DNA of 64,000 bases, from NCBI RefSeq assembly GCF_006715045.1, contig NZ_VFML01000001.1, positions 620,001 through 684,000 on the forward strand, given 5' to 3'. This document shows positions 35,388 to 54,256 of this stretch, piece by piece. Numbering within the stretch: the stretch's first letter is position 1; each line of letters begins with the position of its first letter. The notes below the pieces were generated by a model. That model was not told the origin of the DNA. It made no database searches and saw only the letters and a program-made list of their open reading frames with translations. This stretch comes from Amycolatopsis cihanbeyliensis. Its GTDB lineage: Bacteria > Actinomycetota > Actinomycetes > Mycobacteriales > Pseudonocardiaceae. The position numbers and the translations under genes are program-made.

Positions 35388-36494
35388 TCAGCACCGTTGC
35401 GACCAGTCCCTGCTGAGCGCCTCCTCCAGCAGCGTTTCGACGATCTTGCTCTCCGGTACCGTACGCACCACCTCACCCCGGACGAAAATCTGGCCCTTGC
35501 CGTTGCCCGAGGAGACCCCGAGATCGGCCTCCCTCGCCTCGCCGGGACCGTTGACCACGCAACCCATCACGGCCACCCGCAGTGGAATGGGGAAGTCCTC
35601 GAACGCCGCGGCGACCTCCTCGGTGAGCCGGTAGACGTCCACCTGCGCACGGCCGCAGGAGGGGCAGGACACGATCTCCAGCCTGCGCGGCCGCAGGCCG
35701 AGCGACTCCAGGATCTGGCTGCCCACCTTGATCTCCTCGACCGGCGGCGCGGAGAGCGACACCCGAATCGTGTCGCCGATCCCCTCGCCGAGCAGCACAC
35801 CGAACGCCACGGCCGACTTCACGGTCCCCTGCGGAGGTGGTCCGGCCTCGGTGACGCCGAGATGCAGCGGGTAGTCGCAACGCTGCGCCAGCATGCGGTA
35901 CGCCTCGATCATCACCAGCGGGTCATGGTGCTTGACCGAGAGCTTCAGGTCGCCGAAGCCGTGCTCCTCGAACAGCGAGCACTCCCACAGTGCCGACTCC
36001 ACCATCGCCTCCGCGGTGGCCTTGCCGTACTTCGCCAGCAGCCGCCCGTCCAGCGAGCCCGCGTTCACCCCGATCCGGATCGGGGTGAACGCCGCCGAGG
36101 CCGCCCGCGCGATCTCGGCGACCTTGTCGTCGAACTTCTTGATGTTGCCGGGATTCACCCGTACCGCCGCGCATCCCGCGTCGATCGCGGCGAACACGTA
36201 CTTCGGCTGGAAGTGGATGTCCGCCACCACCGGGATCTGCGACTTGGCCGCGATGGCGGGCAAGGCGTCCGCGTCGTCCTGCGAGGGCACCGCAACCCGC
36301 ACGATCTGGCAGCCCGCGGCGGTGAGCTCGGCGATCTGTTGCAAGGTCGCGTCGACATCGGCGGTCACCGTGGTGGTCATGGACTGCACTGACACCGGCG
36401 CGCCGTCGCCGACCGGCACATCGCCGACCAGGACACGGCGGGACGGCCGGCGGGCCAGCACCGGTCCCGGCATGCCCAGTTCAACGAGACTCAT
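35388..36494 (-). CDS. ispG: IspG, 4-hydroxy-3-methylbut-2-enyl diphosphate synthase
   Basis: A 368-residue MEP-pathway enzyme that reduces methylerythritol cyclodiphosphate to HMBPP using a [4Fe-4S] cluster. The TIM-barrel half includes VSVQSMTTT (about residue 30), [14 protein letters not shown] (about 85) and [13 protein letters not shown] (about 110). The cluster ligands are in SCPSCGR (about 270) and [11 protein letters not shown] (about 305). The length is normal. ATG 36494 follows GGAGGT. It is the last gene of the encapsulin operon, 44 bases after ispH. The association with shell genes suggests a copy dedicated to a special isoprenoid; whether another ispG exists cannot be seen. Confidence 0.95.
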
Positions 36495-36538
36495 CGAGCA
36501 ACCTCCGGAAAGCGTCGGGAAATCGGGCGGGAGCACCC

Positions 36539-37504
36539 TCACCGCACCGCCGACGGCAGGGTGAAGTGGATGGTTTCGCGGGTGGTCTCGTGCGCGTGCA
36601 CGGTGACCGGACCGAGCTCGCCCAGTGCGGCGATCACGTCGTCGACAAGGCTCTCCGGGGCCGAGGCGCCCGCGGTCAGCCCCACGGTGCCCACCCCGGC
36701 CAACCACTCCGGCCGGATATCGCCCGCGTCGTCGATGAGCCGGGCCGGGGTGCCCTGGCGCTGGGCCAGCTCGACCAACCGGACCGAGTTGGACGAGTTG
36801 GCCGAGCCGACCACGAGTACCAGGTCGGACTCCTCGGCCACCCCGCGCAGCGCGTCCTGGCGGTTGGTGGTGGCGTAACAGATGTCATCCGAGGCGGGGC
36901 CACGCAGCTCGGGAAACCGCTCCCGGAGCGCCGTGATCACCTCCTCGGTCTCGTCCACCGACAACGTGGTCTGGGTCAGGTAGGACACCCGAGTCGGGTC
37001 GGGCACGCGCAGGTGCTCCACCTCGGCCACGTTCTGCACCAGCACGGTGTCCTCCGGCGCCTCACCCAGGGTGCCCTCGACCTCCTCGTGCCCCGCATGC
37101 CCGATCAGCAGTACGGTGTCGCCCCGGCCGGCGAACCGGCGCGCCTCGGCGTGCACCTTGGTCACCAGCGGGCAGGTCGCGTCGATCACGTGCAGGTCGC
37201 GCCGGCCGGCCTCCTCGCGCACCGCGGGCGAGACGCCGTGCGCGGAGAACACCAGGGTGGCCCCGTCCGGGACACCGTCCAGCTCATCCACGAACACCGC
37301 GCCCCTGGCCTCGAGATCGGCGACCACGTGGGTGTTGTGCACGATCTGCTTGCGCACGTAGATCGGTCCGCCCCAGCGTCGCAGGGCTTGTTCCACCACG
37401 TCGATGGCCCGCTCCACGCCCGCGCAGAAGGAGCGGGGTGAGGCCAGCAGCACCGTGCGCGGCCCGGCGACCGGACGCCAGGCAGGATCATCCGCATTGA
37501 TCAT
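36539..37504 (-). CDS. ispH: IspH, 4-hydroxy-3-methylbut-2-enyl diphosphate reductase
   Basis: A 321-residue [4Fe-4S] reductase turning HMBPP into IPP and DMAPP. The three cluster cysteines are in [13 protein letters not shown] (about residue 24), [11 protein letters not shown] (about 107) and [11 protein letters not shown] (about 205). Substrate-binding histidines appear in IVHNTHVV and [10 protein letters not shown], and SANSSNS (about 235) matches the conserved SxN phosphate loop. ATG 37504 has GGAG upstream. It lies 28 bases after the polyprenyl synthase gene and feeds that enzyme with its substrates, completing with ispG the last two MEP steps inside this operon. Confidence 0.95.
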
Positions 37505-37532
37505 GTCGTTCACTCCGATGATTCGGGAAAGG

Positions 37533-38573
37533 TCAGCGATCGCGACGGGTGACGAGCCGGGCCAGCGCCGCCAACTCGGCGCCCGCACGCGGCCGCGGGC
37601 CGGCCGCGGCGAGGTCACGCAGTGCCCTCGCCAGCAGCTCGTCGGCCTGCTCCTGGCTCCAGTCACGCGCCCCTGTCGCGTCGATCAGCTCCGCGGCGCG
37701 GACCAGCTCCGTGCCGGACAGCGGCTGCTCGCGGTAGTACAAGGTGGCCAGTTCCCTGCCCTGCGGGGTGTCCGAGGTGAGCGCGGCGACCACCGGCATG
37801 GATTTCTTCCGGTTCTGCAGGTCCGAGTAGACCGGTTTCCCGGTGACCGCGGGCTCGCCCCAGATCCCGAGCAGGTCGTCGACGAACTGGAAAGCCAGCC
37901 CCAGCTGTGCCCCGAACCGGCGCAGCCGGTCCACCTGCTCGGGACCGCCGCCGGCGAAGGCCCCGCCGAGCGCCGTCGTGCAGCCCAGCAACGCCCCGGT
38001 CTTACCCTCCGCCATCCGCAGGCACTCCGCCAGCCCCACATCGGAGCGCGTCTCGAAGACCAGGTCGGCGCTCTGTCCACCGACCAGTTCCTGCACCGCG
38101 GCGGCCAGGGTCCGGATCCCCTGCTGCGCAGCCGGATGACCGCTGCGGGCGAGCACGTCCAGCGCGAGAGTGAGCAAGGAGTCCCCGGCCAGGATCGCCG
38201 CCCCGACACCGAACACACTCCACGCCGTGGGCCGGTGGCGACGGGTGACGTCGCCGTCCATCACGTCGTCGTGCAGCAACGAGAAGTTGTGCACCAGCTC
38301 CACCGCCACGGCGGCCGGAACCGCGTCCGCCGGCCTGCCGCCCGCCGCCTCGGCGGCCAGCAGCACCATGGCGGGCCGGATGGCCTTGCCGCCGGCCTCC
38401 CGTAACGAGCGCCCGTTCTCGTCCCACCAGCCGAGGTGATAGCCGGTGACGTGCCGCATCTCCGACGGCAGCGTGTCGACCGCCGTGCGCAACGCGGGAT
38501 CGACGAGGCCGCGGCCTGCGGACAGCACCTCCGGCACCGGCCTGCCCTCGGTCATCACATCCGAGATGGCCAT
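37533..38573 (-). CDS. Polyprenyl diphosphate synthase, likely encapsulin cargo
   Basis: A 346-residue trans-prenyltransferase (FPP/GGPP synthase fold) that condenses IPP units onto an allylic diphosphate. The first aspartate-rich motif is [18 protein letters not shown] (DDxxD, about residue 95) and the second is [12 protein letters not shown] (about 235). [13 protein letters not shown] (about 60) is the IPP-binding segment. The second motif is DDLLG rather than DDxxD, a variation found in some actinobacterial enzymes. The chain length cannot be read safely. ATG 38573 lies only 7 bases after the shell gene stop, strongly coupling the two. Polyprenyl synthases are a recognised cargo class for family 2B encapsulins. 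The first 30 or so residues could hold a loading segment, but no long disordered tail is seen. Confidence 0.9.
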
Positions 38574-38580
38574 GCGCGGC

Positions 38581-39999
38581 TCAACCTTCCCTGCCGATCT
38601 CGACATGCTCGAGTACGCCGAGCGCATCCGGAACGAGCACGGCCGCCGAGTAGTACGCGCTGACCAGATAGGACAGGATGGCCTTGGCGTCCACACCACG
38701 GAACCGGACGGACAGCCCGGGCTCGTACTCGTCCGGCAGACCGGTCTCGTGCAGCCCGATGACCCCCTCGTGCTCCTCACCGGTGCGCATGACCATGATC
38801 GAGCTGGTCCCGGTGTCGGAGATCGGGATCTTGTCGCAGGGCAACAGCGGCACCCCGCGCCAGGACATCGCCGTACGGTCGCCGACGTCGAGTGCCTCCG
38901 GGTAGACGCCCCGGCGCGTGCACTCCCTGCCGAAGGCGGCGATGGCGCGCGGGTGCGCGAAGAAGAACTCCGACCTGCGCCGCCTGCTGAGCAGCTCGTC
39001 CAGGTCGTCCGGGGTGGGCGGCCCGGTGCGGGTCTGGACGCGCTGCCTGAGGTCGGCGTTGTGCAGCAACCCGAACTCCCGGTTGTTGACCAACTCGTGC
39101 TCCTGCCGCTCACGCAGGGCCTGGATGGTCAGCCGTAGCTGCTGCTCGGTCTGGTCCATCGGGTTGTTGTACAGATCGGCGACGCGAGTATGGATCCGCA
39201 GCACGGTCTGCGCCAGGCTCAGCTCGTACTCGCGGGGCGCCGCCTCGTAGTCCACAAAGGTCGCCGGCAGGCTGGGCTCCCCCGCATGCCCCGAAGCCAG
39301 CTCGATATCGGCCTCGCCGAGCTTGTTCCGCGGCTCGGGCCGATGCGCGCGGACCCGATCCAGATGCGCACGCAGCCGGTCGGACCGGCCGAGCAGGTCC
39401 TCGAACCGCTGCCGGGGCAGCGCGAGCACGGTGCACGGGGTCACCGCCTGCACCGTGAAGTCCCACAGGTTGCCGGATTCGAGCAGCATTGTGGAGCCGA
39501 AGTGCTCGCCATCGGCCATGGTGCCGAGCACCGTGCGGTCGCCGTACTCGCCCGCGCCCAGCCGGTTCGCCTTGCCGTGCGCGATCAGGTACACCCGGTC
39601 CGCGCGGTGCCCGAACTCGGCGATCACCTCGCCCGGCTGGAACTGCTCCTGCTCGAACCGGTCGGCCAGCGCGTCCAGTACGTCCTCGTCGTCGAACCCG
39701 CGCAGCGGCGCGAGTTCCCGCAACTCCTGCGGGATCACCCGCACCGCGGAGCCGGTGTTCACGAAGGTGACCCTGCCGTCGCCGAGGGTGTAGGTGAGCC
39801 TGCGGTTCACCCGGTACGTACCACCCTTCGTCTCCACCCAGGGCAGCTTCCGCAGCAGCCACCGCGGCGAGATGCCCTGCATCTGCGGCACCGACTTGGT
39901 CGTCGTGGCCAGTTGCCGCGCGGCCGCCGTGCCGAGGCTGTGCGGCGGCCTGCCCTCCGCACCCGCGTCCGGCTCGGCCGTTTCCGTTGTCGCAGTCAC
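38581..39999 (-). CDS. Family 2B encapsulin shell protein (EshA-like), copy 1
   Basis: A 472-residue cyclic-nucleotide-binding-domain protein of the EshA type, now understood as an HK97-fold encapsulin with a CNB-like domain inserted in the shell subunit. The N-terminal arm includes [20 protein letters not shown] (about residues 20-40). The CNB-like fold spans about 95-205 ([32 protein letters not shown]). The HK97 part follows, with [32 protein letters not shown] and a C-terminal [17 protein letters not shown]. In the phosphate cassette the usual Arg is missing (LWDFTVQA), so nucleotide binding may be altered or lost. The GTG at 39999 is chosen for the upstream GGTGGG; TTG 40014 and GTG 40011 are alternatives. 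The shell probably encloses the prenyl synthase encoded next. Confidence 0.88.
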
Positions 40000-40091
40000 G
40001 ATGAAGCCCACCAATCTGTACGGTCGCCTGTGGAAAGCGCCAAGCGCGCCGGCTCGTGCCGGCTACGCCTGACGCCGTAGGTGGATATCGC

Positions 40092-41504
40092 TCAGTCCGC
40101 GCGCCCGATCTCGACGCGCTCGAGAATGCCGAGTGCGTCCGGGACCAGCACGGCCGCCGAGTAGTACGCGCTGACCAGGTAGGAGATGATCGCCTTCTCG
40201 TCGATACCCATGAACCGGACGGACAGGCCCGGCTGGTACTCGTCCGGCAGCCCGGTCTGGTGCAGCCCGACGACACCCTGCTGCTCCTCACCGGCGCGCA
40301 TCAGCAGGATCGAGCTGGTGCGAGTCTCGGTGACCGGGATCTTGTTGCACGGGAACATCGGCACCCCGCGCCACGCCGGCACCATGTGCCCACCGATGTC
40401 CACACTCTGCGGGTAGAGCCCGTTGCGGTTGCACTCCCGGCCGAAGGCCGCGATGGCACGCGGGTGGGCGAGGAAGAAGCTCGGCTCCTTCCACACCGTC
40501 GCCAGCAGTTCATCCAGATCGTCCGGGGTGGGCGGACCGGACCGCGTGTGGATACGCTGCTTGAGGTCGGCGTTGTGCAGCAGCCCGAACTCCCGGCTGT
40601 TGATCATCTCGTGCTCCTGCCGCTCGCGGAGCGCCTCGATGGTCAACCGCAACTGCTGCTCGGTCTGGTTCATCGGCTGGTTGTAGAGGTCGGCGATCCG
40701 GCTGTGCACCCGCAACACCGTCTGCGCGACGCTGAGCTCGTACTCCCGCGGCGCCGACTCGTAGTCCACGAAGGTGCCGGGAAGGTCCGGCTCCCCGGTG
40801 TGGCCGGACGCCACCTCGACCGCGGCCTCGCCGTAGTCGTTGCGCGCCGAGACGAGGCTCGCCCGGTACCGCTCCACATGGTCGCGAAGTTGGTCGGACT
40901 GGTCGAGCAGGTCGTCGAAGGCCCGCTGCGGCAGCACCAGCACGGTGCACGCGGTGGTCGCCTTGACCGTGAAGTCCCAGATGCTCTGCGGGTCGAGCAG
41001 CGTCTCGTCGCCGAAGTGGTCGCCGTCGGCCAGCACATCCAGCGCGGTCTCGTCGCCGTACTCGCCGGGGCCGAACCTGCTCAGCTTCCCGTGCGCGATG
41101 AGGAGGGCCTGATCGGAAAGGTGCCCGAACTCCACCAGCACGTCGCCCGGTTCGTACTCGCGCTGCTCGAACCGGTCGGCCAGCGCGCTCAGCACCTCCT
41201 CGTCGTCGAACCCGCGCAGCAACGGCAGCTCGCGCAGTTCCTGGGGGATCACCCGCACCGCGGAGCCCGTGGCGGAGAACGTCACGCGCCCGTCGCCAAC
41301 GGTGTAGGTGAGCCTGCGGTTCACCCGGTACGTGCCACCCTTCGTCTCGACCCAGGGCAACATCCGCAGCAGCCACCGCGAGGAGATGCCCTGCATCTGC
41401 GGCACCGACTTGGTCGTCGTCGCCAGCTTGCGCGCGGCCGCCGTGCCGAGGCTCTGTGGCCGCTCGTCCCCAACGCTGGACTCCACCGGCTCAGTGACGG
41501 TCAC
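40092..41504 (-). CDS. Family 2B encapsulin shell protein (EshA-like), copy 2
   Basis: A 470-residue paralogue of the following gene. The N-terminal arm and core are nearly identical ([40 protein letters not shown]), while the CNB-like insert and loops differ more ([23 protein letters not shown]). Again the phosphate-cassette Arg is absent. The HK97 part includes [20 protein letters not shown] and [28 protein letters not shown]. Two shell genes in tandem suggest a mixed, two-component compartment. The GTG at 41504 mirrors the start chosen for copy 1; TTG 41519 would add five residues. It is the first gene of the five-gene operon, with a 92-base gap before copy 1. Confidence 0.88.
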
Positions 41505-42231
41505 TACGTACACCACCAATCCTAGTAATGCGAGCGGAGAAGAAGATCAGTTTTTCTGATTGATCAAGAACGACAATACATTCGGATCGTCGGCCCAATT
41601 TTCCCCCGAGGGTTCAGGTGGGACCGCTAACTCAACATAGCAAGCGGGAATCGACGCACAAACACACGATCGGGTAGCGGCGACTTCTCACCCGAATGCC
41701 GGGACATGCGGGTAAAACTGCCGGACCGTCGCGCGCGTCCTCCTGGCATCGCCTGCCGTATCGGCGGCGGTCCGACCGGGCCGCGGTCACCGGGCACCCG
41801 ACCGCTTGCACCGGCAGTCGCAGCGTGGACACGAGGGAGTGAAGATCACCGAACACCCTCTGATACCAGCACTTCCGCACCGGACGTATCGGGCATTGTC
41901 GGCACAGTACCTCCGGAAGGGACGGTGCGTACACCCGGTCACGAGCCGGCCGCCACGGTTGGCCCAACGGCCCGGCAACCGCGTGAAAGGCGCGCCGGAG
42001 GACTCGTCGTCCGGCGCTGCGTTCGCCATTTTCACTGCTCCTTTCGGCGAGGTTCTCCTCGCCGTATTCATCTGTCGGATGAATTATTCTCGGCGGACTT
42101 GCCCATGGCGCCGAGCCGTCACTAACTTCGTCACCACATCGAGTGGCGAGCGGTGGTGCGGAATCGGCTACGCCACGCTCTGGGGTTTCTCGGGGTTCTT
42201 CTCCCTCCCCGGGGGCACGGGAAGGAACGGG
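41505..42231. other. Long divergent intergenic region (727 bp)
   Basis: This separates the encapsulin operon (minus) from the DUF4239 gene (plus). The first 120 bases are relatively AT-rich and hold the inverted repeat ATCAG-N5-CTGAT (41546-41560) in the presumed leader or promoter of the shell operon. The rest is GC-rich and contains one possible small minus-strand gene (41787-42029). The plus-strand frame running into the DUF4239 gene shows no coding character before 42232. Confidence 0.5.
41787..42029 (-). CDS. Possible small cysteine-rich protein
   Basis: An 80-codon frame starting at ATG 42029, preceded by the strong ribosome binding site AAAGGAG eight bases upstream. The product begins MANAAPDDESSGAPFT. 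Its C-terminal half is Arg/Cys-rich, with eight cysteines clustered toward the end (SCPRCDCRCK). I recognise no family. About a quarter of codons end in A or T, more than in neighbouring genes, which weakens the case, but the ribosome binding site and the lack of any other gene in this 727-bp gap support it. It could be a zinc-binding or secreted-peptide-like protein, or simply noncoding DNA. Confidence 0.33.
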   Translation of the reverse strand: MANAAPDDESSGAPFTRLPGRWANRGGRLVTGCTHRPFRRYCADNARYVRCGSAGIRGCSVIFTPSCPRCDCRCKRSGAR

Positions 42232-43008
42232 ATGAATATCTACCTCAGCGGACTGTTGTGGATGCTGGGTGCCGCGGTGGTCGGCGGCGGGACCGCGTAC
42301 CTGGTGCGCAGGTTCGGCCACGACGAGGGCAGGCTGGACAACAACGACGCCGCGGGGCAGGTGTTCACCATCATCAGCGGTCTGCACGCGGTGCTGGTCG
42401 CCTTCGTACTGATCTCCCTTTTCGACGCGGTACACGCCGCGCGGGACGGGCTGCGGCACGAGGCGGACAGCGTGATCGCGGCGGTATGGGCCGCCGACTC
42501 GCTGCCCTCCTCGGCGAGCGAACAGGTCCGGGCGATCAGCGCGTCCTACCTGGAAACGGTGATCCAGCGGGAATGGCCGCAGATACGGGCAGGGGACGAG
42601 GTCACCGGCCCGGGATGGACCCAGCTGCAACAGCTGCACCGGACGATCAACAAGGCTCCGATCCAGACCGACGACGAGTACTACGCCACCCAGAAGACCG
42701 AGGCGGTGCGCCAGGTCCTCGCCACGTACCAGGCACGGGAGGAACGGATCACCAGGCTGGTACACGGTGATGTCGGCACGGTGGTGTGGTTCGCGCTGGT
42801 ACTCGGCGGGGTGATCGCCACCCTGCTGCCCAACCTGTTCGGCGGTACCAAGATGATGACCCACGTGGTGATCGTGTCCACACTCGCGGGAACGATCGCG
42901 CTGCTGCTGTTCGCCATCCACCAGTTGCAGAACCCGTTCGGCGGAGCGGCCAGGGTGGAGCCCGAGGCCTTCGAGTCCGCCCTCGAACGGTTGCGCCAGG
43001 CGCCATGA
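42232..43008 (+). CDS. DUF4239 (bestrophin-like) membrane protein
   Basis: A 258-residue protein with two N-terminal helices (about residues 5-22 and 45-65), a long soluble middle part, and two C-terminal helices (about 185-205 and 215-235). The segment DEGRLDNNDAAGQVFTIISGLHAVLVAFVLISLFDAV and the late VVWFALVLGGVIATLLPNLFG are typical of DUF4239. The function is not established. ATG 42232 follows GGAAGGAACGGG; the frame is open far upstream but that part is not coding-like. It overlaps the next gene by ATGA, so the two are translated together. Confidence 0.85.
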   Translation: MNIYLSGLLWMLGAAVVGGGTAYLVRRFGHDEGRLDNNDAAGQVFTIISGLHAVLVAFVLISLFDAVHAARDGLRHEADSVIAAVWAADSLPSSASEQVRAISASYLETVIQREWPQIRAGDEVTGPGWTQLQQLHRTINKAPIQTDDEYYATQKTEAVRQVLATYQAREERITRLVHGDVGTVVWFALVLGGVIATLLPNLFGGTKMMTHVVIVSTLAGTIALLLFAIHQLQNPFGGAARVEPEAFESALERLRQAP

Positions 43009-44219
43009 CGTCTGCCCGGCTCCGCGATCCGCACCGCGGTCCGGCGCTGCTGGCCAGCGTCATGCTGGTGCTGTTGCTCGGGCCACCGGGGATTCCGGCC
43101 CGCGCCGCTCCCGGCTGCTCGATCCTGCGAGTGCATGCCGATGCGGTGCGCGGTCCGTCCACGTTGAGCCGGGTGGAGCTGCCCGCGGGCACCGCGACCC
43201 GGATCCGGCGGCTCGGGTACGAGGTGAACGCCGTCGGATACTCGCACGCGCAGGACCGTGGTTACGGGATCGCGACGGGTGAGCATCGCGGGTCCCGGCC
43301 CGGCTCGTGGCACGGGTACGGGCGGGTGCTGAGCTTCGACACGGCGGGCACGGTGCGGGATCACGGACCACTGCGGCATTCCGGGCGCAGGCCGCCGTGG
43401 GTCTCGATCCGGCAGGCTACCGCCGGCGCGATCTCCGGCACCCGCTGGTTCGTCAAGTGGGGCAGCAGCCTGAGGGTGGTGGACATCGACCCGAGCAGCC
43501 CGACGTTCCTGCACGTCCTGCGCGGCACGGAGCTGCGCCCGGACTCGGTCGCCGCCGCCGTGCACGACTTCGACATGGACCCGGCCGACGGTGCCCTGTA
43601 CGGGGTGTCGACCCGGCCGAAGGGCCGGGCTGCCGTGGCGCGCATCGACCCGCGCAGCGGCGCGGTCCGGCGGCTGCCCGGTCCGTCCCTGCCACGGGCG
43701 AGCGCCTACGGGGCGGCCACCCTGGGGCCGGACGGCGCGCTGTACGTCACCGCCGACACGGCCGGGCACCGCAGCAGGCTGTACCGGGTGCCGCGGGACG
43801 GTTCGGCGGCGACCGAACTGGCCTCCGGGCCGCCGGTGGTCAGCTCCGACGCCACCGGCTGCCTGGCCGCGCCGCCGCCCCCGCCACCGACGCCACCGCC
43901 GACCTCTTCCCCACCGCCGGCGCCACCGGTGCCCGCGCCACCCACACCCGTGCCACCCACACCGAGCACCACGACCCCGGTCGTTCCGCAACCGGTGGTC
44001 CCACCCCCGACCACCCCGCCGCCGGTACGCCGGGCCGCCCCGCAACCACCGGTGCGCACCCCCGCGAGCGAGCCCACGCCCGACCGGCTACCGCCGCGCG
44101 CGCAGCAGGCGGCCGAGCAGCGCACCGACGCCACGGAGCGCAAGCGCCGCTGGAGCCTCGCCGTGCTGGTCGTGATCATCGCCGGCGGCGCAGCCGCGAG
44201 GCACGTCGGCCGCCGCTGA
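43005..44219 (+). CDS. Secreted, membrane-anchored protein with beta-propeller-like domain and Pro-rich stalk
   Basis: A 404-residue extracytoplasmic protein. A signal peptide ends near ARA-A (about residue 35). The 240-residue ectodomain contains propeller-like repeats (RVLSFDTAGTVRDHG, LRVVDIDPSSPTFL, AVARIDPRSGAVRRLPG, AATLGPDGALYVTADT), reminiscent of DUF6923-type proteins. A Pro/Thr-rich stalk (about 285-370) is followed by a single C-terminal helix and a basic tail (HVGRR), so it is probably anchored in the membrane facing outward. It is coupled by ATGA to the DUF4239 gene, hinting at a joint envelope function. Function unknown. Confidence 0.75.
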   Translation: MTSARLRDPHRGPALLASVMLVLLLGPPGIPARAAPGCSILRVHADAVRGPSTLSRVELPAGTATRIRRLGYEVNAVGYSHAQDRGYGIATGEHRGSRPGSWHGYGRVLSFDTAGTVRDHGPLRHSGRRPPWVSIRQATAGAISGTRWFVKWGSSLRVVDIDPSSPTFLHVLRGTELRPDSVAAAVHDFDMDPADGALYGVSTRPKGRAAVARIDPRSGAVRRLPGPSLPRASAYGAATLGPDGALYVTADTAGHRSRLYRVPRDGSAATELASGPPVVSSDATGCLAAPPPPPPTPPPTSSPPPAPPVPAPPTPVPPTPSTTTPVVPQPVVPPPTTPPPVRRAAPQPPVRTPASEPTPDRLPPRAQQAAEQRTDATERKRRWSLAVLVVIIAGGAAARHVGRR

Positions 44220-46298: not shown

Positions 46299-46856
46299 TC
46301 AGAACAGGTGCCCGAAGGCCAGCGCGACGCCGAAGAACAGCCCGGCCCAGCCGAGAAACCGCACGACCCCGAGGCGCCGGGCATGGGCAACCCCCGCCGA
46401 GGAGTCCGGCGGCGCCACGGTCCGCACCTGTTCGATCCGTTCCCGCAGGCCGCGCTGGTACCGGTTTCCCCAGAGCGCGTTCCACAGTGAGCTGCCGCCC
46501 ACCCCCACACCGATCTCGGAACCGTCTCGCAGCACCAGCGCCACCGCGGGATCGACCTCGACGGCCGTCACCTCGGGCCACGGTATCCAGTACCGGTTGA
46601 ACCAGTTCTGGACCAGCAGGCCGCGTTCGAACAGCACCGTCTTCGAGGTCAGGACGGCGCCGATGAACCACAGCCCGGCCGAGCCGATCAGCAGCACCGC
46701 GAGGTACTCGCCGAACGGAAGCTTGGCGTGCGGGCCGTTGATCGCCCCGCCGAAAACCAGGACGCCGATCAAGATCGTGCAGACGAGCGCGAAGCCGAAC
46801 TCGAACCAGCGACGAACCGTCGCCTTCCTGGTTCCCCACGATGCGGTGCTCAGCAA
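46299..46856 (-). CDS. PH-like membrane protein, candidate immunity protein
   Basis: A 185-residue membrane protein. Two N-terminal helices (about residues 17-38 and 50-72) are followed by a bacterial PH-like segment (KTVLFERGLLVQNWF through WPEVTAVEVD and VLRDGSEIGVGVGG) and a C-terminal helix (VRFLGWAGLFFGVALAFG). The best start is TTG 46856, preceded by AAAGGA and overlapping the end of the RHS gene by 7 bases; no other start codon exists before the first helix. Position directly after a giant RHS protein is that of an immunity gene in polymorphic toxin systems. That role is inferred from context only. Confidence 0.7.
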   Translation of the reverse strand: MLSTASWGTRKATVRRWFEFGFALVCTILIGVLVFGGAINGPHAKLPFGEYLAVLLIGSAGLWFIGAVLTSKTVLFERGLLVQNWFNRYWIPWPEVTAVEVDPAVALVLRDGSEIGVGVGGSSLWNALWGNRYQRGLRERIEQVRTVAPPDSSAGVAHARRLGVVRFLGWAGLFFGVALAFGHLF

Positions 46857-49800
46857 TACCTCGATCCTTTGAACGCACAGGTGAACGCGTAGCCGACCCA
46901 GCCGAACAGGCCGGAGAGAAACTGGTTGACCAGCAGGTTCACCCTGGTGGCCACCCAGTTTATTCGAGTCGACTGCACCTTCGTGTATCTCGTGGTATGC
47001 GTCTTACGGACGAACGGTGACTTGCGGTTGCGCAGGCTCAACGCACCCTTGCCCCCGACATACCGGGCGGCCGCGGCACCCCCGCCGATCGAAGCCAGGT
47101 TCGCCGCCGCCTTTCCCCAGTCGATATTGTGCCTGGTCGATATCCCTTCCGCGACGACGGTCGTCACCGCTACCGCCGCACCCGCCACGGCGCAGACTCC
47201 GGCGGAGACCACAATGCACCCGACGGCCAGCCCGGCGGTGATGTAGTCGCCGTACTCGTTGGCCTTGTCGGCCACCCAGCCCGCAGCCTCGTCGACGGCG
47301 TTACCGATGCCCTCGGCGATATCGCACACCAACCAGCACTTGCCGCTCAGGTCCGTGGTGTTGACCGGATTCGCCCCGGCGTACTCGTAGGCGTTGGCCG
47401 AGCCCTCCGGCTGGGGGTCCACGGAAAGGAACCTGCCGAGCAGCGGACTGTACGGCCGCGCGCCCATCTGCACCAGGGAGAGCGATCCCGCGTGCTCGTA
47501 GGGACGCTGGTGCTCGCCGAGCCAGCCGTAGTCCATCTCGCCCGGCTGGTTGTCCGGCACCGCGTCCGGATCCACCGCGCCGTCGGCACCGATCGGCTGG
47601 CCGTAGGGACCGTAGTGCCGCAACGGCCCATCCTGGACGCCCTCACCGTCGCTGGTCAGCACCAGGTCACCACGAACGCTGGGATGATCCCAGGTGGTCG
47701 TGGTCTCCCCGGCCTCGGTCCGCAGGGTGTACAGCACGCCGCCCGGCAAGGACACCGTCCTGCTCAGCAGGCGCTTGTCGGCGGTCAGCGTCACGGCCGC
47801 GTTGTCGTTGTCGCCGAGGTAGCACTGCAGCACCATGGCGGTGCTGTCGCCCTCGCTCACCCCGCGGGACGTGATCCGGTCGATCGCGTCCCGCTGGTAG
47901 CTCACCGAGGCGGCCTCCGGCCCGGTGGTGCGGGCGGTCAGGTTCCGGCCCGCGGTGTCCCAGCCGAGGTACGTGCTGTGCCCGCCCTCCGTGATCTCCA
48001 CGGTGTTGCCTGCCGCGTGGTAACCGAACTCGGCCGCCAGCGCGCCATGCGTGGCCAGCAACCGGTCCGCCGCGTCGTAGCAGTAGCCGGTCTCGGCCGT
48101 ACCGGACGCCGTGGTGTCCACCAGTTTGACCCGGTTGGTGTTGCGGCCCGCGTTCGCCCTGGTGCCCTCCGGGCAGCTCGCGGCCGCGTCCGAGGTGAAG
48201 TCGTAGCGATAGTGGTGCCCGCTGACGTACGCCTCGGTCATCCGACCGACGCTGTCGTAGGCATAGTTCGGCCCTTCCGGGCGGGCATCCACCCCGGCCA
48301 GGCTCTCGTCCACGACGGTCCCCGCGCGGGTACGGGACACCTCCGAGGTGACCTCGGTCCCGTCGGCGAGGCGCCAGGTCCGGCTGGTCTCGCGACCCGC
48401 GACATCCCTTCCGACCGCGGACAGCGCGGAGCCGTTGGCGTAGGCGACCGAGGCCAGCTCGCCGGCCTGGTCGTAACTCGCCGTGGCCAGGGTGGTGTCG
48501 TTCAGGGTGGTGGACAGCAGCCTGCCCGCGTCGTCGTAGGCGAACGTGCTGACCTGCTGCGCGTCGGCGGCGTCCGGCAGCACGACCGTCTCGGTGGCCA
48601 CCCGCCCCATCGGGTCGTACTCCTTCTCCGTCCGTACCCCGTGCACGTCGGTGTAGCTGACGGTCTGGCCGAGCAGGTTGGTCCTCGTGGTGACGGTGCC
48701 GTGGTGATCGGAGACCGAGGTGGTCAGCGGGTCACCGTCCACCGCGTAGTCGTAGCGCACCACCCGCTCACCATCGGCCGAGTTCGCCGGGTAGGTCGTG
48801 GTGGCGATCCTGCCGCGCGCGTCGTAGGTGGTGCACGCCCAGCCCGCGCCGGCCAGGTGATCGGCGACCGCCCTGCCGAGCAGGTCGTACACCTGCTCCT
48901 CCACCCGGTTGGTGCCATCGGCCGCGCTCGGCGCGGTGGACTTCTTCACCAGGCCGGACTGGAGGACGGGATCGGACTCCGCGGTGCACGGATCGTCCCT
49001 GGTTTCGGTGTCGCCGTAGTACACATAGCTGGTCTGCGCCCCGCTGGGCATGGTGCGCGTGGTGCGGCGCAGGAAGCCATCGCCGGGCGCCTCGTACGTG
49101 GCGGTGCCGGACATCGCCAGCCCGTCCGGGTTCACCGTCGCCCGCTCGGCGATACCGAAGGCCGGGTCCAGGTTCTCCCCGTAGGTGGTCACCATCCGCT
49201 TGTCGGGTACGCCTTCGGACTCCCGTTCGGTGGTCGAGGTGACCAGGCCGTAGTCCGGGGTGAGCTTGTCCCGCGGCACGACCGTCCAGTCGAACCCGCC
49301 GAGCTGCTTCCAGGTGAAGTTCAGGTTGTCGCTGGCCCGAGCCTGGTCACCGGTCAGCGGGTAACGCTGGTACTCCACCCTCAGCCGGTGCTTGCCCGCC
49401 GAGAGCTGGATCGGCTTCCGCCCGTCGTTCACGGTGCCCGCACCCGCCACGTGCCCGGCGATCTCCTTCTCCGGCAGCTTCCGGTCGTAGAGCGCGACCT
49501 CGTCCAGCTCCGCCTGTGCCGTACCGCCCTCCGGGCGACGGCCGATCGCCAGCGGCGAACTGTTGGCCGCACCGGGTTCGGCGAAGGTACCGTCGCCGAC
49601 CTTCTCCCCGTTGAGGTAGAAGGTCACGTGGTTGTCGGCGTCCCTGGTGACCGCGACGTGGCTCCATTCGTCGGCGACCACCGACTTGTCGGATTCGAGC
49701 GTCTGCCAGCCCGACGAGCCGCTGACCTGCCGGAGCTCCATGTTCAGGTCCGGGGTCAGGGACAGCTCGAACGGCATCGCCGCGCTGTTCGACCCGCCGT

Positions 49801-52800
49801 ACTTCGAGATCAGGTCGTGCCAGCCGTTACCGTCGAGGTTGTGCCGGGGTTTGACCCAGAGCTCGATCGTCAGCGGACCGGTCAGGTCCAGCGCGTCGGA
49901 GTCCGGGATCTCAGCCTTGCCGCCGGTGAAGTCCACCGCCCGGTTGTTGTCGTCCGGCATGGCACCGCCGCGCTCCTGGGTGTACGCCCCGGAGTAGGCA
50001 CCGTTCCGCCCGTTGCCGGAGTGGTCCCGCAGGGTGCCGTCGGTGTCCGCGAGCCGCCAGTGGGCCAGCGGGTCCGAATCGGCCACGCTCGGCGCGTAGG
50101 TCCGGTTGGCGATCAGGTTGTCGTCCACGTAGACCCGCATGCCGTCGGTGACGTCGTCCTCGGCGGTGCCGAAGACGTACTCACCTTCCTCGTCCACCTG
50201 CAGCAGACCGGTCATCCGGCCGGAGAACTCGCCCGGGTCGATGCCCGGAGCCGGTGGCGTGCTTCCCCAGTCGGTGTTCGGCGCCGAGGTGGAGTAGGTC
50301 TCGGCCGCCCCGGACATATGCGAGTTCGTCCACCAGGTGCCAGACAGTCCGGTGTAGCCCTCGTCGTACCGGGTGGTCTTGTACGGGACGTCCGCGCAGC
50401 CCTCGGGCGCGGGGTCCAGCGGGATCCGGTTCTCCCCGAAGCAGTGTTCGGGCGCGGGACCGGACTCGTGCATCGGGTTGCCCTGTGCGTCGTGCACGAT
50501 ATGCGTCACCCGGTCGGCCGGGTCCTTCTTGATGACCATCTGGTCGTCGTGCCACCAGGTGTAGTGCGTTGTCGCTCCGGTGGCGTCGGTGTCGGTCAGC
50601 ATCCGGCCGGAGAGGTCCTTGGTGATCCGGCGGACGAATCCGGTATCCGGATCCATCCCGGCGACATCGACCTCCGTCCAATCCGGACCGTAGGTGTAGT
50701 CCTTGCGCTGCCGCTGCGAAGGTGTCTGGGCGAACCCGCTCGGTTCGGGTGTTTTCGCCCAGATCGCCCGCCGGTTGCCGTCGTAGCCGAACTGGTGGTT
50801 GGGCGCGGTGCTGTTGCGGTTGGCCGAGTCGGCCATGATCCAGTCCATCGACAGCGAGGTGCGCATCTGGTCCAGCAGGTGCGCACCGCTGAAGCCGTAC
50901 TGGGTCCACTCGTCACCCGGGTTGCGGAACGCGCCGAGCCTGCCGTTCAGGTAGTACAGCGAGGAGGTGGCACCGTCCGGCAGCCGCACGGCACAGAGGT
51001 ACCCGGCGGGCGCGGGCCAGTCGTACGCGCTCCACGGGTCTCGCTCGCAAGCCGGGTCCAGCGTGTCCAGGTCACCCGACGAGTAGTGCAGGGTGATCGC
51101 CCTGCCGGACGCCGGGTCGATCACCCTGGTCAGGCGCGGAACCACCGCTGAGGTGTCCAGAGTGGACCATTCCATTCGCGCGGCCGCCGGCTTGCGGGCG
51201 TCGGACGGCGCCGTGATCGACTCGAGTCCTCCGGAGGAGTTGAACACGAAGGTGGTGCCGTCCGAGTCGATGAGCGTCAGCCTGCCGTCCTCGTCCCGGG
51301 ACAGGGTACCGTACTCCCCCGGCGGCGGCTCGTACCCGCCGTCGGAACGCTTCGTGTAGGAATGCGCGGCGCCGGAGGCATCGGTGAGCACCACGGAGTT
51401 CTCGGTGAACGTCGCCTTGGTGTAGCTGGCGCCCGCCGCGTCGGAGCCCACCGACATGGACCAGCCCGGCGGCAGCGAGGGCGCGTTCGGCGAGAGCCAG
51501 GAGGCGGGCACCGGAACCGGGGCGGCGCCGTCCTTCTCCGCCCAGAGCTTCATGTGCGCGAAGACGGCACCCTCGCGGTACTCGATCCGGATCGGGTACG
51601 AGCGGTTCGCCTCCAGATCCTTGGCGGTGGCGCCGTCGAACTTCGGCGGATCGTCCAGCGGGACCCAGGTGTTCCACTGGTCGTAGGCGCTCTCGTCCCC
51701 GATCCAGATGCGCAACCCGTCGTCGTGCACCCCACCGAACCGGTAGCTGCCGGACTCCGGCACCCGCAGGTAGCCCTGCCAACGCACCCGGAAGCCGTCC
51801 TTGGCGATCACCGGGTCGTAGGGCGAGGTCCGCTGCCAGTCGAAGGACACCTGGGAGTCGGTGCGCACCAGCACCGGCTCCTCGTCGTCCTCGATGCCCT
51901 CGGTCGAGTCCCCGGTAAAGTACTCCCCGACCAGCCCGGTCTCGTCAACGGCCTGCGAATTGTAGGTCAGGTCCACCGAGACGTCACCGCCGACGGTGTG
52001 CATCGGCGGCGTACCGTTCGTGGTGATCAGGTTACCGGTGGAAAGGTTGACGTTCACCGGACCGGTCTCGTCCCCCGGCACCGCGTCCTGCAGGCCGAGC
52101 CGCAGGTCCACCTTCAGCTTGCGTGCCGGGGCATACAGGCTCCGGGTGTCCGGGCCCTTGTCCCTGGACCGCACGGTCCAGGTGTAGTTCACCCCGTCCT
52201 CCAGCACGCCCGCCGGTACCTGCCAGGAGGGCGCGTCCAGCCAGCCGGACTGGGCGACGAGACCGGAGCGGCCGTCGGCGCCGGTACCGATGGAGAACTC
52301 GTACTGCACCGTGTCGTTCTCGGCGTCATCCACCGTCCCGGCGCTCAACGTCGGGCGCTTGCCCGCCACCACCGCCCGGTCCTGGGGTGCCTGCAGTGCG
52401 GGTACCCCAGGCGTCTCGTTGTAGCTCGCGAAGTTGTAGACCGGTGAGTAGCTCCACTTGTTGTCCGGCATGTACGGGTCCCGGACTCTCGCCTGCCAGT
52501 AATATCGCTTGTTCCACCGCAGGGTCGGGGTATGCCAGTCGGCGACCGTGCCGCCCTCCGCGACCTCGGACTGGTGCGAGGCGAAATGCCGGTTCATCAC
52601 GTCCGGGTCCTCGGACAGGAAGAACTGCACCGTCATCCGGTCCGAGTTCGGGTCGGTGACGTCGACACCGAGGTGGAAGTCCCTCGTGTGCCACCGGCAG
52701 TCCTCGCCCGAGCAGCCCCGGTTGGCCGGCTGGCTCGGCCAGTCGTTGAAGTCGACGGTGACCACCGAGGCGCCGCCGTCCGGACCGGCCTCGGCCGCCG

Positions 52801-54256
52801 CCATCTTTTTCCACGAACCCTGCCCGTCCCCGGCGGTGTCGATCATCAGCCCGTGATAGGCCCATGCGCCGGAGGAGAAGTTGCGCACCCAGTCGGTGAT
52901 GTCCACATGCGACCATTTCTCCCGCACCCCGGTGCTGTCCCGCCAGGCGCCACCGACGCAGGGCCGGTTGTTCCAGGTGATGGTCGACTTGTTCCAGGCG
53001 CAGGGCACGTCGTGTAGCCGGAACCGGGTGGGCGTGGTGAGGTTGGAGTGCACCCAGAACCCGTGCCATTCGGCGTTGATGATCTGCTTGTTGCGCACGT
53101 GCGAGAGGTCGTAGTACGCGAAGGTCTGGTTCCGGCCCGCACCCGGCCAGTAACCGATCTTGTTCAGGTAGCCGCGACCGTCCTCCCAGTACACGTCGTA
53201 GTTCGTGGTGGGGAACGCGCTGGAGACGAAGGCGTCGTAGGCGGCGTACAGGGTATGCGTGTGCAGGCCGGGGTCCACCTTGACCGGGAACTGGCGCTCC
53301 GGCGCGTTGACCCAGTCCTGGTCGGCGGACAGCACCACCCGCCACCCGCGCTCGTCGGACTCCAGTCGCTGGGACACCGGCCCGTTGCGCCACTCACCGG
53401 ACCGGTCGTCCTGCGCCGAGTCCCACATGACCGGGGCGGGCACGGTGAACTCCACCCGCCCCTCGTCGCCGTACACCAGGATCCGGCCGTCTTCCTGCTG
53501 TTCGGGCCGCATCCCCTGGTCCAGATGCAGCCGGAAGGTCCACTCCGGAGCGTCGATCGCCCGGTGCAGCACGAAGGTGTGCTTCACACCGGTGGCCGAG
53601 GTGCGCAGTTCCAGGTCCACCCCTGGCTGGACATCCGGATACAGCGCGACCTCGCCGTTCAGCTTCGGGGCCCGGTCGGCGAGCCCCTCGAACTCGAGCC
53701 GGGCCGAGCCGGAACCGTCGCCGGACCGCACCTGGATCTCCGGGCTGCGCGCGGTTCGGGCGGGCAGCTCCATCGGTACCGCGGCGGCCTTCGGCCTGAT
53801 CCCGCCGTGCTCCCGCTCCAGCGAGGCGTCCGCGGGCACCATGGACCGGCCGTCCTCGCCGGGTACGTTCACGACCTCCTGGTAGAGCTTGGCGGTTTTC
53901 GTCCCGTCCGGGTTGGCGAAGATGGTCGCGCTGGGATGCCGTTCCATCACGCGGGACTCCCCCTCGACGAAGCCCGTGCCGCGCTCCTGCCGGCGGGCCG
54001 TCGCGTCCGGGTCGGCAATCTTCTCCGGTTCCGCGGACGGTTGCTCCCGCGCGTGGTCGCCCGCCGGCATCTCCGGCCGCACCGAGGATCCCGGTTCGCT
54101 CGGCAGCGGCTCCACCCGGCCACCACCGGGCTCGGCCCGCGCGCCCTCCGGCGCGGCGACCCCCACCACCAGCGAGAGACCCAGTGCGAACACGACTACC
54201 GCGATGACCGCCTGGAAGAACGCCGAGCAGGCGTGACGAGACCCTCTCATGTGCAC
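46850..54256 (-). CDS. Giant secreted RHS-repeat protein with PA14 and LamG domains and a variable C-terminus
   Basis: A 2468-residue exported protein. An N-terminal signal or anchor (about residues 9-35) is followed by a beta-rich region, a segment similar to RHS-associated DNRLRE-type domains (YDAFVSSAFPTTNYDVYWEDG, about 345), an Fn3-like part (about 625) and a PA14 domain (about 790-930). RHS/YD repeats follow, with a second PA14 domain (about 1310-1670) split by a LamG-type domain (about 1395-1600). The RHS core ends with GRFLSVDPQPEG and NAYEYAGANPVNTTDLSG (about 2275-2310). The last 155 residues are unrelated to the core, with hydrophobic stretches (YITAGLAVGCIVVSAGVCAVAGAA; FLSGLFGWVGYAF). 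Such tails are usually toxins. GTG 54256 has GGAGG 7 bases upstream; ATG 54250 is an alternative. Confidence 0.92.
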   Translation of the reverse strand: MHMRGSRHACSAFFQAVIAVVVFALGLSLVVGVAAPEGARAEPGGGRVEPLPSEPGSSVRPEMPAGDHAREQPSAEPEKIADPDATARRQERGTGFVEGESRVMERHPSATIFANPDGTKTAKLYQEVVNVPGEDGRSMVPADASLEREHGGIRPKAAAVPMELPARTARSPEIQVRSGDGSGSARLEFEGLADRAPKLNGEVALYPDVQPGVDLELRTSATGVKHTFVLHRAIDAPEWTFRLHLDQGMRPEQQEDGRILVYGDEGRVEFTVPAPVMWDSAQDDRSGEWRNGPVSQRLESDERGWRVVLSADQDWVNAPERQFPVKVDPGLHTHTLYAAYDAFVSSAFPTTNYDVYWEDGRGYLNKIGYWPGAGRNQTFAYYDLSHVRNKQIINAEWHGFWVHSNLTTPTRFRLHDVPCAWNKSTITWNNRPCVGGAWRDSTGVREKWSHVDITDWVRNFSSGAWAYHGLMIDTAGDGQGSWKKMAAAEAGPDGGASVVTVDFNDWPSQPANRGCSGEDCRWHTRDFHLGVDVTDPNSDRMTVQFFLSEDPDVMNRHFASHQSEVAEGGTVADWHTPTLRWNKRYYWQARVRDPYMPDNKWSYSPVYNFASYNETPGVPALQAPQDRAVVAGKRPTLSAGTVDDAENDTVQYEFSIGTGADGRSGLVAQSGWLDAPSWQVPAGVLEDGVNYTWTVRSRDKGPDTRSLYAPARKLKVDLRLGLQDAVPGDETGPVNVNLSTGNLITTNGTPPMHTVGGDVSVDLTYNSQAVDETGLVGEYFTGDSTEGIEDDEEPVLVRTDSQVSFDWQRTSPYDPVIAKDGFRVRWQGYLRVPESGSYRFGGVHDDGLRIWIGDESAYDQWNTWVPLDDPPKFDGATAKDLEANRSYPIRIEYREGAVFAHMKLWAEKDGAAPVPVPASWLSPNAPSLPPGWSMSVGSDAAGASYTKATFTENSVVLTDASGAAHSYTKRSDGGYEPPPGEYGTLSRDEDGRLTLIDSDGTTFVFNSSGGLESITAPSDARKPAAARMEWSTLDTSAVVPRLTRVIDPASGRAITLHYSSGDLDTLDPACERDPWSAYDWPAPAGYLCAVRLPDGATSSLYYLNGRLGAFRNPGDEWTQYGFSGAHLLDQMRTSLSMDWIMADSANRNSTAPNHQFGYDGNRRAIWAKTPEPSGFAQTPSQRQRKDYTYGPDWTEVDVAGMDPDTGFVRRITKDLSGRMLTDTDATGATTHYTWWHDDQMVIKKDPADRVTHIVHDAQGNPMHESGPAPEHCFGENRIPLDPAPEGCADVPYKTTRYDEGYTGLSGTWWTNSHMSGAAETYSTSAPNTDWGSTPPAPGIDPGEFSGRMTGLLQVDEEGEYVFGTAEDDVTDGMRVYVDDNLIANRTYAPSVADSDPLAHWRLADTDGTLRDHSGNGRNGAYSGAYTQERGGAMPDDNNRAVDFTGGKAEIPDSDALDLTGPLTIELWVKPRHNLDGNGWHDLISKYGGSNSAAMPFELSLTPDLNMELRQVSGSSGWQTLESDKSVVADEWSHVAVTRDADNHVTFYLNGEKVGDGTFAEPGAANSSPLAIGRRPEGGTAQAELDEVALYDRKLPEKEIAGHVAGAGTVNDGRKPIQLSAGKHRLRVEYQRYPLTGDQARASDNLNFTWKQLGGFDWTVVPRDKLTPDYGLVTSTTERESEGVPDKRMVTTYGENLDPAFGIAERATVNPDGLAMSGTATYEAPGDGFLRRTTRTMPSGAQTSYVYYGDTETRDDPCTAESDPVLQSGLVKKSTAPSAADGTNRVEEQVYDLLGRAVADHLAGAGWACTTYDARGRIATTTYPANSADGERVVRYDYAVDGDPLTTSVSDHHGTVTTRTNLLGQTVSYTDVHGVRTEKEYDPMGRVATETVVLPDAADAQQVSTFAYDDAGRLLSTTLNDTTLATASYDQAGELASVAYANGSALSAVGRDVAGRETSRTWRLADGTEVTSEVSRTRAGTVVDESLAGVDARPEGPNYAYDSVGRMTEAYVSGHHYRYDFTSDAAASCPEGTRANAGRNTNRVKLVDTTASGTAETGYCYDAADRLLATHGALAAEFGYHAAGNTVEITEGGHSTYLGWDTAGRNLTARTTGPEAASVSYQRDAIDRITSRGVSEGDSTAMVLQCYLGDNDNAAVTLTADKRLLSRTVSLPGGVLYTLRTEAGETTTTWDHPSVRGDLVLTSDGEGVQDGPLRHYGPYGQPIGADGAVDPDAVPDNQPGEMDYGWLGEHQRPYEHAGSLSLVQMGARPYSPLLGRFLSVDPQPEGSANAYEYAGANPVNTTDLSGKCWLVCDIAEGIGNAVDEAAGWVADKANEYGDYITAGLAVGCIVVSAGVCAVAGAAVAVTTVVAEGISTRHNIDWGKAAANLASIGGGAAAARYVGGKGALSLRNRKSPFVRKTHTTRYTKVQSTRINWVATRVNLLVNQFLSGLFGWVGYAFTCAFKGSRYC

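Follow-up and report, generated by a model that had tools for sequence, protein, structure and literature searches.

A Family 2B encapsulin operon of Amycolatopsis cihanbeyliensis with genes for isoprenoid-precursor synthesis, and a candidate cargo cyclase encoded at a distance

We examined a stretch of 64,000 nucleotides from the soil bacterium Amycolatopsis cihanbeyliensis (NCBI RefSeq assembly GCF_006715045.1, contig NZ_VFML01000001.1, positions 620,001 to 684,000 of the forward strand), referred to here as the window, of which positions 35388-41504 are occupied by a run of five minus-strand genes encoding two Family 2B encapsulin shell proteins (Enc1 and Enc2), a polyprenyl diphosphate synthase (PT), and the two iron-sulfur enzymes IspH and IspG of the methylerythritol phosphate (MEP) pathway. 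The explanation that we favour, and that we hold with moderate confidence, is that this operon provides a two-component Family 2B nanocompartment along with a dedicated isoprenoid supply line, the cargo being a terpene cyclase whose gene lies far away in the same genome. The system is of a known kind; what we did not find in the literature searched was the more sharply defined precursor branch and a candidate cargo whose gene lies apart from the operon.

The genes follow one another in the order Enc1-Enc2-PT-IspH-IspG, within a genome of 7.4 Mb in two contigs, and are separated, with the start codons that we chose, by 92, 7, 28, and 44 bases, Enc1 having a possible alternative start at 41513-41519 and Enc2 another at 40014. 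Enc1 (40092..41504, minus strand), an upstream-type shell protein with an inserted cyclic-nucleotide-monophosphate (cNMP)-binding domain, matched PF19307 with 469 bits and PF00027 with 55, whereas Enc2 (38581..39999, minus strand), of the downstream type, matched the same families with 457 and 62 bits. Both proteins thus combine the HK97-type SrpI-like and cNMP-binding domains, the latter being located in the E-loop of Family 2B shells according to the available parts of the published descriptions; and both scored far above the cut-off of 400 bits in the model NF041163 (encap_f2b), at 798.8 and 785.5 bits, respectively. The two are 71% identical and are the only matches to PF19307 in the genome. 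Diagnostic motif 1, which in the available text of a 2025 paper separates upstream (TVWK-like) from downstream (RRRK-like) shells (PMC12407261), reads TVWK in Enc1 and SRRRR in Enc2; and the nearest solved chains were 9bje and 9bix, which we take to be the Enc1 and Enc2 of Streptomyces lydicus because of the motifs they carry. By these sequence marks, Enc1 and Enc2 resemble shells reported to co-assemble, and by analogy with the S. lydicus proteins (PMC12407261, available in part) the two would be expected to form a single mixed shell.

Directly behind Enc2, at a distance of 7 bases, PT (37533..38573, minus strand; 346 aa; PF00348) is a short-chain synthase with the motifs DDVMD and DDLLG that scored 495.6 bits, against a cut-off of 450, in NF041169 ("family 2 encapsulin cargo polyprenyl transferase"), this score and its place identifying it as an encapsulin-associated PT; its best other relative, in an Amycolatopsis, is 93% identical. 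IspH (36539..37504, minus strand; 321 aa; PF02401) reached 319.8 bits in TIGR00216 (cut-off 187.85) and possesses the three Cys, while IspG (35388..36494, minus strand; 368 aa; PF04551), the last gene of the run, reached 515.7 bits in NF001540 (cut-off 345) and possesses the CPSC motif, the third Cys, and NGPGE, so that all three proteins look like complete enzymes. An earlier note on this DNA, prepared from its letters alone, had ascribed these same identities to the five genes; all are present and passed curated cut-offs, including the pair of Family 2B paralogues and both iron-sulfur MEP enzymes, whose Cys residues are in place. A scan of the locus for promoters and terminators returned zero sigma-70-like sites and 3 terminator-like sites, against 2.3 expected, and was set aside.

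That note had also stated that no terpene cyclase was present, which holds for the locus itself but not for the genome, where a search with PF19086 found a single two-domain cyclase gene, located at 1.385 Mb and separated from the operon by 725 kb. In its translation, the stretch between the two domains includes GGPTGLGTSASR, and PTGLGTSAAR is found C-terminally; a GPTGLGTSAAR-like motif is reported for geosmin-synthase-like encapsulin cyclases in the available text of PMC8346489. The protein scored 1209 bits, against a cut-off of 1200, in NF041168 ("family 2 encapsulin cargo terpene cyclase"); we call it geosmin-synthase-like from its two-domain build and motifs, the NCBIfam name being that of an encapsulin-cargo cyclase only. 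Since this cyclase carries the cargo motif and passes NF041168, the free prenyl diphosphate envisaged earlier as an end product is not the likeliest one.

To what extent shell and cyclase accompany each other was assessed in a family sample of 297 genomes, 198 of which contained Enc (E <= 1e-100), the cyclase being searched for in 80 of those 198 and in 80 of the 99 Enc-negative genomes. A full-length cyclase was present in 77 of the Enc-positive genomes, two others having half-length or split matches (G402, G414) and one none (G451); among the Enc-negative genomes, three had a full-length cyclase, one had it in three pieces (G541), five gave weak or partial matches, and 71 had none. By eye, the same contrast recurred inside genera containing both kinds of genome, where the cyclase was found in 2/2 Enc-positive and, at full length, in 0/1 Enc-negative genomes of g239, and likewise in 1/1 and 0/9 of g260, 4/4 and 0/1 of g261, 2/2 and 0/3 of g262, and 2/2 and 0/2 of g267, genus g254 being uninformative (0/1 and 0/1). 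For 61 genomes we had the coordinates of both genes: measured to the Enc matches listed, the cyclase was within 20 kb in 12, on the same contig but at least 49 kb away in 24, and on another contig in 25. Because most of these cyclases are distant, their co-occurrence with Enc arises only in part from a shared neighbourhood. There are also related loci in which a cyclase lies between Enc1 and Enc2 and Dxs behind IspH. Reportedly, one study placed a 2-methylisoborneol (2-MIB) synthase in an encapsulin. In myxobacteria, encapsulins occur within geosmin clusters, as described in the available text of PMC12224551.

Among the proteins of the called loci, the pattern LGT[AS][AGS][AS]R, which describes the cyclase tag, was carried by 15 of the 53 cyclases and by 38 of the 168 Enc called, some of the latter with a start past the arm, and by none of 114 PT, 43 IspH, and 7 IspG; it was likewise absent from 1483 other proteins, a zero which says little, since a rough estimate gives some 0.2 expected matches there. 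More telling is that the shell N-arm of Enc1 (SLGTAAAR, in 40092-41504) resembles a cyclase tag such as GLGTSAAR (L149:1231-3552), although this likeness between conserved shell-arm and cargo segments may be coincidental. No tag-like extension was seen by eye on IspH or IspG; the lengths of the IspH termini, derived from a mixture of gene calls, were given no weight as counts.

The recurrence of the gene order was surveyed in two sets of loci, both biased by the way in which they were drawn and some of them cut by contig ends. The first comprised 80 named loci drawn around the best relatives of the locus PT, with genes from a simple coding-composition caller and labels assigned by cluster (Pfam being run on the cluster representatives only); by that caller, 55 of the 81 loci obtained when the window is included hold Enc, L036, whose Enc was found by tblastn only, being outside the 55. 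The second comprised 40 family-level loci around Enc matches, hand-picked for genus spread, 33 of which have both Enc and PT. A phylum-wide search with encap_f2b was discarded: the weak matches listed spanned little beyond the cNMP domain, and 17 of 396 genomes were above the cut-off, which moved the survey to the family level. Two Enc were present in 37 of the 55 named loci; IspH, in 27, was commoner than Dxs (9) or IspG (3), and a terpene cyclase was encoded in 19 and a bestrophin-like gene in 15. The 33 family loci contained IspH in 8, IspG in 4, Dxs in 3, a cyclase in 16, and the bestrophin-like gene in 16. In all 27 named loci having IspH, that gene stood immediately after PT on the same strand, and in both sets IspG and Dxs were only ever found alongside IspH, Dxs being behind it in 8 named loci and ahead of Enc1 in L077. 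The main precursor partner is, then, IspH, with IspG a minority add-on and Dxs another. The exact order of the window was repeated, among the loci examined, in one genome of the same genus (L184); a Kribbella locus (L067) has it with a cyclase inserted between Enc1 and Enc2, three loci (L152, L163, L177) have Enc-Enc-PT-IspH-Dxs-IspG, and Nocardiopsis halophila (L061) has Enc-cyclase-Enc-PT-IspH-Dxs-IspG. The core order Enc-Enc-PT-IspH was encountered again in several families, which recurrence indicates that the neighbourhood is not due to chance. The earlier note had proposed such a survey and would have taken an order confined to close relatives as telling against its idea; the order does extend beyond them.

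IspH and IspG are each encoded three times in the genome (one each at 2.64/2.26 Mb, one each at 6.24 Mb, and the operon pair). At 6.24 Mb (contig 1, 6241851-6246856), IspH, a prenyl synthase, and IspG lie together in what is probably another terpenoid cluster. In a midpoint-rooted tree of 62 IspH, 35 operon-linked rows and two PT-linked ones (L036, which has Enc, and L068, whose contig begins just ahead of PT) constituted one group of 37 with modest support (88/81, or 97/88 without Glycomyces), outside which fell 13 unlinked rows (100/99) as well as a set of six hopanoid-locus plus two unlinked rows (87/79). The group includes Pseudonocardiaceae, Nocardiopsidaceae, Streptosporangiaceae, Micromonosporaceae, Glycomycetaceae, and Kribbellaceae; and the operon IspH shares 57-59% identity with its own genome's two other copies, compared with 72-77% with four operon copies elsewhere. 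Judged by its place in the tree, the operon IspH is a member of a group that accompanies Enc-PT operons. For IspG the trend is the same with weak support, six of seven operon rows clustering (94/90) in a tree of 21, and the operon copy sharing 79-82% identity with its own genome's others and 83-88% with four from operons.

As for the product of PT, the fifth and fourth positions before DDxxD, residues that are only suggestive of chain length, are F and S in the locus PT, as they are in 81 of the 88 PTs linked to Enc (with one misparsed row) and in all 10 PTs from hopanoid loci; the exact string NFSLLH was present in 70/88 and 4/10, respectively. Hopanoid loci were recognised in L090 from HpnE, squalene-hopene cyclase, and HpnH, and elsewhere from shared clusters. 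Because squalene requires farnesyl diphosphate and the hopanoid-locus synthases share the F and S, our guess for the product is farnesyl diphosphate.

Under the explanation that we favour, cytosolic IspG and IspH would raise the levels of isopentenyl and dimethylallyl diphosphate and feed the shell from the outside, PT would make a short prenyl diphosphate, possibly farnesyl diphosphate, at or in the shell, and the distant cyclase, loaded through its motif, would form a sesquiterpenoid of the geosmin type inside. Ferredoxin or flavodoxin is generally regarded as a necessary electron donor for IspG and IspH. The two-fold slits of a homogeneous Enc2 shell measure 14 x 60 Å and are partly covered (PMC12407261, available in part), so that ferredoxin and flavodoxin are probably excluded from the shell. 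With no tag seen on either enzyme, protein electron donors, and such narrow slits, a location of IspG and IspH inside the shell is unlikely. The interpretation given in the earlier note is supported in part: the gene identities and an order kept beyond close relatives stand, whereas the residence of IspG and IspH in the same compartment finds no support.

Several observations weigh against our explanation. IspH is missing from 28 of the 55 named and from 25 of the 33 family loci with Enc and PT. The cyclase exceeds the NF041168 cut-off by only 9 bits, and the genome search that found it was restricted to the PF19086 cyclase family. The difference of 77 versus 3 full-length cyclases gives 1e-37 in Fisher's test, a value to be taken as a mere yardstick, since the genomes are related rather than independent and the contrast is therefore inflated. 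In the genus of the window (g1), moreover, the cyclase was found in 23/23 Enc-positive and also in 3/3 Enc-negative genomes, the latter keeping the tag-like sequence, so that shell and cyclase are not strictly tied. Since the distances cover the Enc matches listed, a nearer Enc is possible, and in six of the 49 distant cases (G401, G411, G450, G481, G496, G503) Enc has a further cyclase match, shorter or weaker, next to it, which raises to 18 of 61 the genomes with any cyclase near a listed Enc. A looser regular expression, applied to the cyclases of 33 loci, found the interdomain tag in 25 and the C-terminal one likewise in 25, L231 being read in the wrong frame. The NCBIfam runner-up for PT was the geranylgeranyl diphosphate (GGPP) synthase model IdsB, at 348.6 bits against a cut-off of 475; such a product would be of no use to a sesquiterpene cyclase. 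Finally, PT cargo is described, in the available text of PMC8346489, as having a disordered N-terminal domain of 50-100 residues with no motif, and no such domain appears in the AlphaFold2 model of the locus PT (mean pLDDT 90.5), where residues 1-8 are the sole stretch below 50 and the first helix spans 13-32.

This last feature bears equally on the strongest of the rival explanations, to which we concede a smaller though still appreciable probability, namely that PT itself is the main cargo and releases a free C15 or C20 prenyl diphosphate for quinones, carotenoids, or lipids, the distant cyclase being unrelated and the MEP genes boosting the flux. NF041169 does name PT as cargo, a polyprenyl diphosphate synthase gene is the most frequent neighbour of 2b shells according to the available text of an eLife article of 2021 (PMC8049743), and 33 of our 40 family loci, which were found via Enc, have PT, although no weight can be put on its frequency in the 55 named loci, found via PT. 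Against that explanation, PT has no long or disordered N-terminus: 101 residues precede DDxxD in the locus PT, compared with a median of 98 for the 88 PTs linked to Enc and of 92.5 for 26 others, and in alignment A1 only 3 of 20 rows (P0063, P0069, P0100) begin well ahead of it. Furthermore, none of the 114 PTs carries the cyclase tag, and it is with the tagged cyclases that Enc co-occurs. A segment RSAxEVLxWSR, located at the start of the first helix in the model, was considered as a loading tag for PT and rejected: by the strict regular expression it was present in 29/55 and 21/33 Enc-linked PTs, in 11/15 PTs of Enc-free loci, and in 0/10 of hopanoid loci, and so, being equally common without Enc, marks a type of PT rather than loading.

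A second rival, which we regard as improbable, is an ordinary terpenoid cluster with spare MEP genes near a prenyl synthase, the encapsulin being a regulatory bystander of the EshA-like kind. Hopanoid loci likewise hold PT and IspH, the same genome groups IspH, a prenyl synthase, and IspG at 6.24 Mb, and three Amycolatopsis loci (L055, L066, L083) keep PT with the bestrophin-like gene and have no Enc in the stretch examined; but the Enc/PT-linked IspH stand apart, with modest support, from those of hopanoid loci, the shell types, gene order, and motifs are conserved, and shell and tagged cyclase co-occur across the family. To much the same low degree we would entertain the conjecture that the shells are docking hubs for a pathway with scattered genes, in which the tag would mimic and replace the shell N-arm, IspH would sit at the outer face with Dxs and IspG as add-ons, and the bestrophin-like protein would attach the shell, or what it makes, to the membrane. 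Least probable of all, and in our view very doubtful, is that IspH, IspG, and PT are all enclosed, one compartment leading from the IspG substrate to a prenyl diphosphate: tight same-strand clustering, the invariable position of IspH directly behind PT in the 27 named loci having it, and the separate group formed by the operon-linked IspH would suit that arrangement, but no tag-like extension was seen by eye on IspH or IspG, none of the 43 and 7 copies in the called loci carries the cyclase tag, a protein electron donor would be needed, and IspG is missing from 52/55 and 29/33 Enc+PT loci.

Divergent from the operon, the bestrophin-like gene (42232..43008, plus strand, with the start given by the gene caller; PF14023, 132 bits as scored on a longer open reading frame) is the only PF14023 match of the genome. 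Above-cut-off matches to PF14023 were found in 34 of 39 Enc-positive family genomes, mostly as a single copy, and in 18 of the 39 no more than 8 kb separated the gene from a listed Enc; it stands beside encapsulin/PT operons in L041, L048, L050, L056, L067, L086, L104, L152, L184, and others. No convincing solved relative of its profile was found (best E 0.15). The three Enc-free Amycolatopsis loci cited above suggest that this gene may belong to PT and not to the shell. The next gene (43174..44219, plus strand; cluster c19) matched DUF6923 with 39 bits, also scored on a longer open reading frame; genes of that cluster occurred in 5/55 named and 6/33 family loci and repeatedly adjoin the bestrophin-like gene in Pseudonocardiaceae. 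Further along, at 46850-54256 on the minus strand, lies the gene of a very large protein of 2468 aa matching PA14, laminin-G, CBM96, and RHS-repeat.

Were our favoured explanation correct, it would account for the many PT-type encapsulin operons without a cyclase, whose cargo would be encoded elsewhere and be recognisable by its tag, and it would mean that operon neighbours alone can mislead as to cargo. Among the precursor enzymes, IspH would have the closest tie to these shells, the bestrophin-like membrane protein would join the list of parts, and the locus would offer a direct test of whether a dedicated MEP branch feeds a bacterial nanocompartment.

In the open-access subset of the literature covered, whose main texts were searched, we found no IspH or IspG in encapsulin operons, no distantly encoded cyclase cargo, and no link to bestrophins. 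The locus nevertheless resembles the two-shell PT-type systems already described in having two cNMP-domain shells with the diagnostic motifs, PT downstream of Enc2, and precursor genes, the last being reported for encapsulin PT systems in the available text of PMC8346489; it differs in the disordered PT N-terminus, which the locus PT does not have, and in that the portions of text covered do not name IspH, IspG, or Dxs, the nested order, a distant cargo cyclase, or a bestrophin-like neighbour. With the encapsulin-cargo cyclases (NF041167, NF041168; 2-MIB- and geosmin-synthase-like in the available part of PMC8346489) the A. cihanbeyliensis cyclase shares the two domains and the GPTGLGTSAAR-like tags between the domains and at the C-terminus, although it lies 725 kb from the shell genes. 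Hopanoid clusters (PT, squalene-hopene cyclase, IspH, HpnH) are alike in the prenyl synthase near IspH and in the F and S before DDxxD, but have no shell, an IspH from a separate group, and a PT which, in the one tested with a shortened gene call, scored 404 in NF041169, under the cut-off of 450. The Streptomyces lydicus Enc1/Enc2 mixed shell provides the closest chains and a matching motif 1, within an operon that differs in being described, in the available text of PMC12407261, as a putative xylulose-kinase system.

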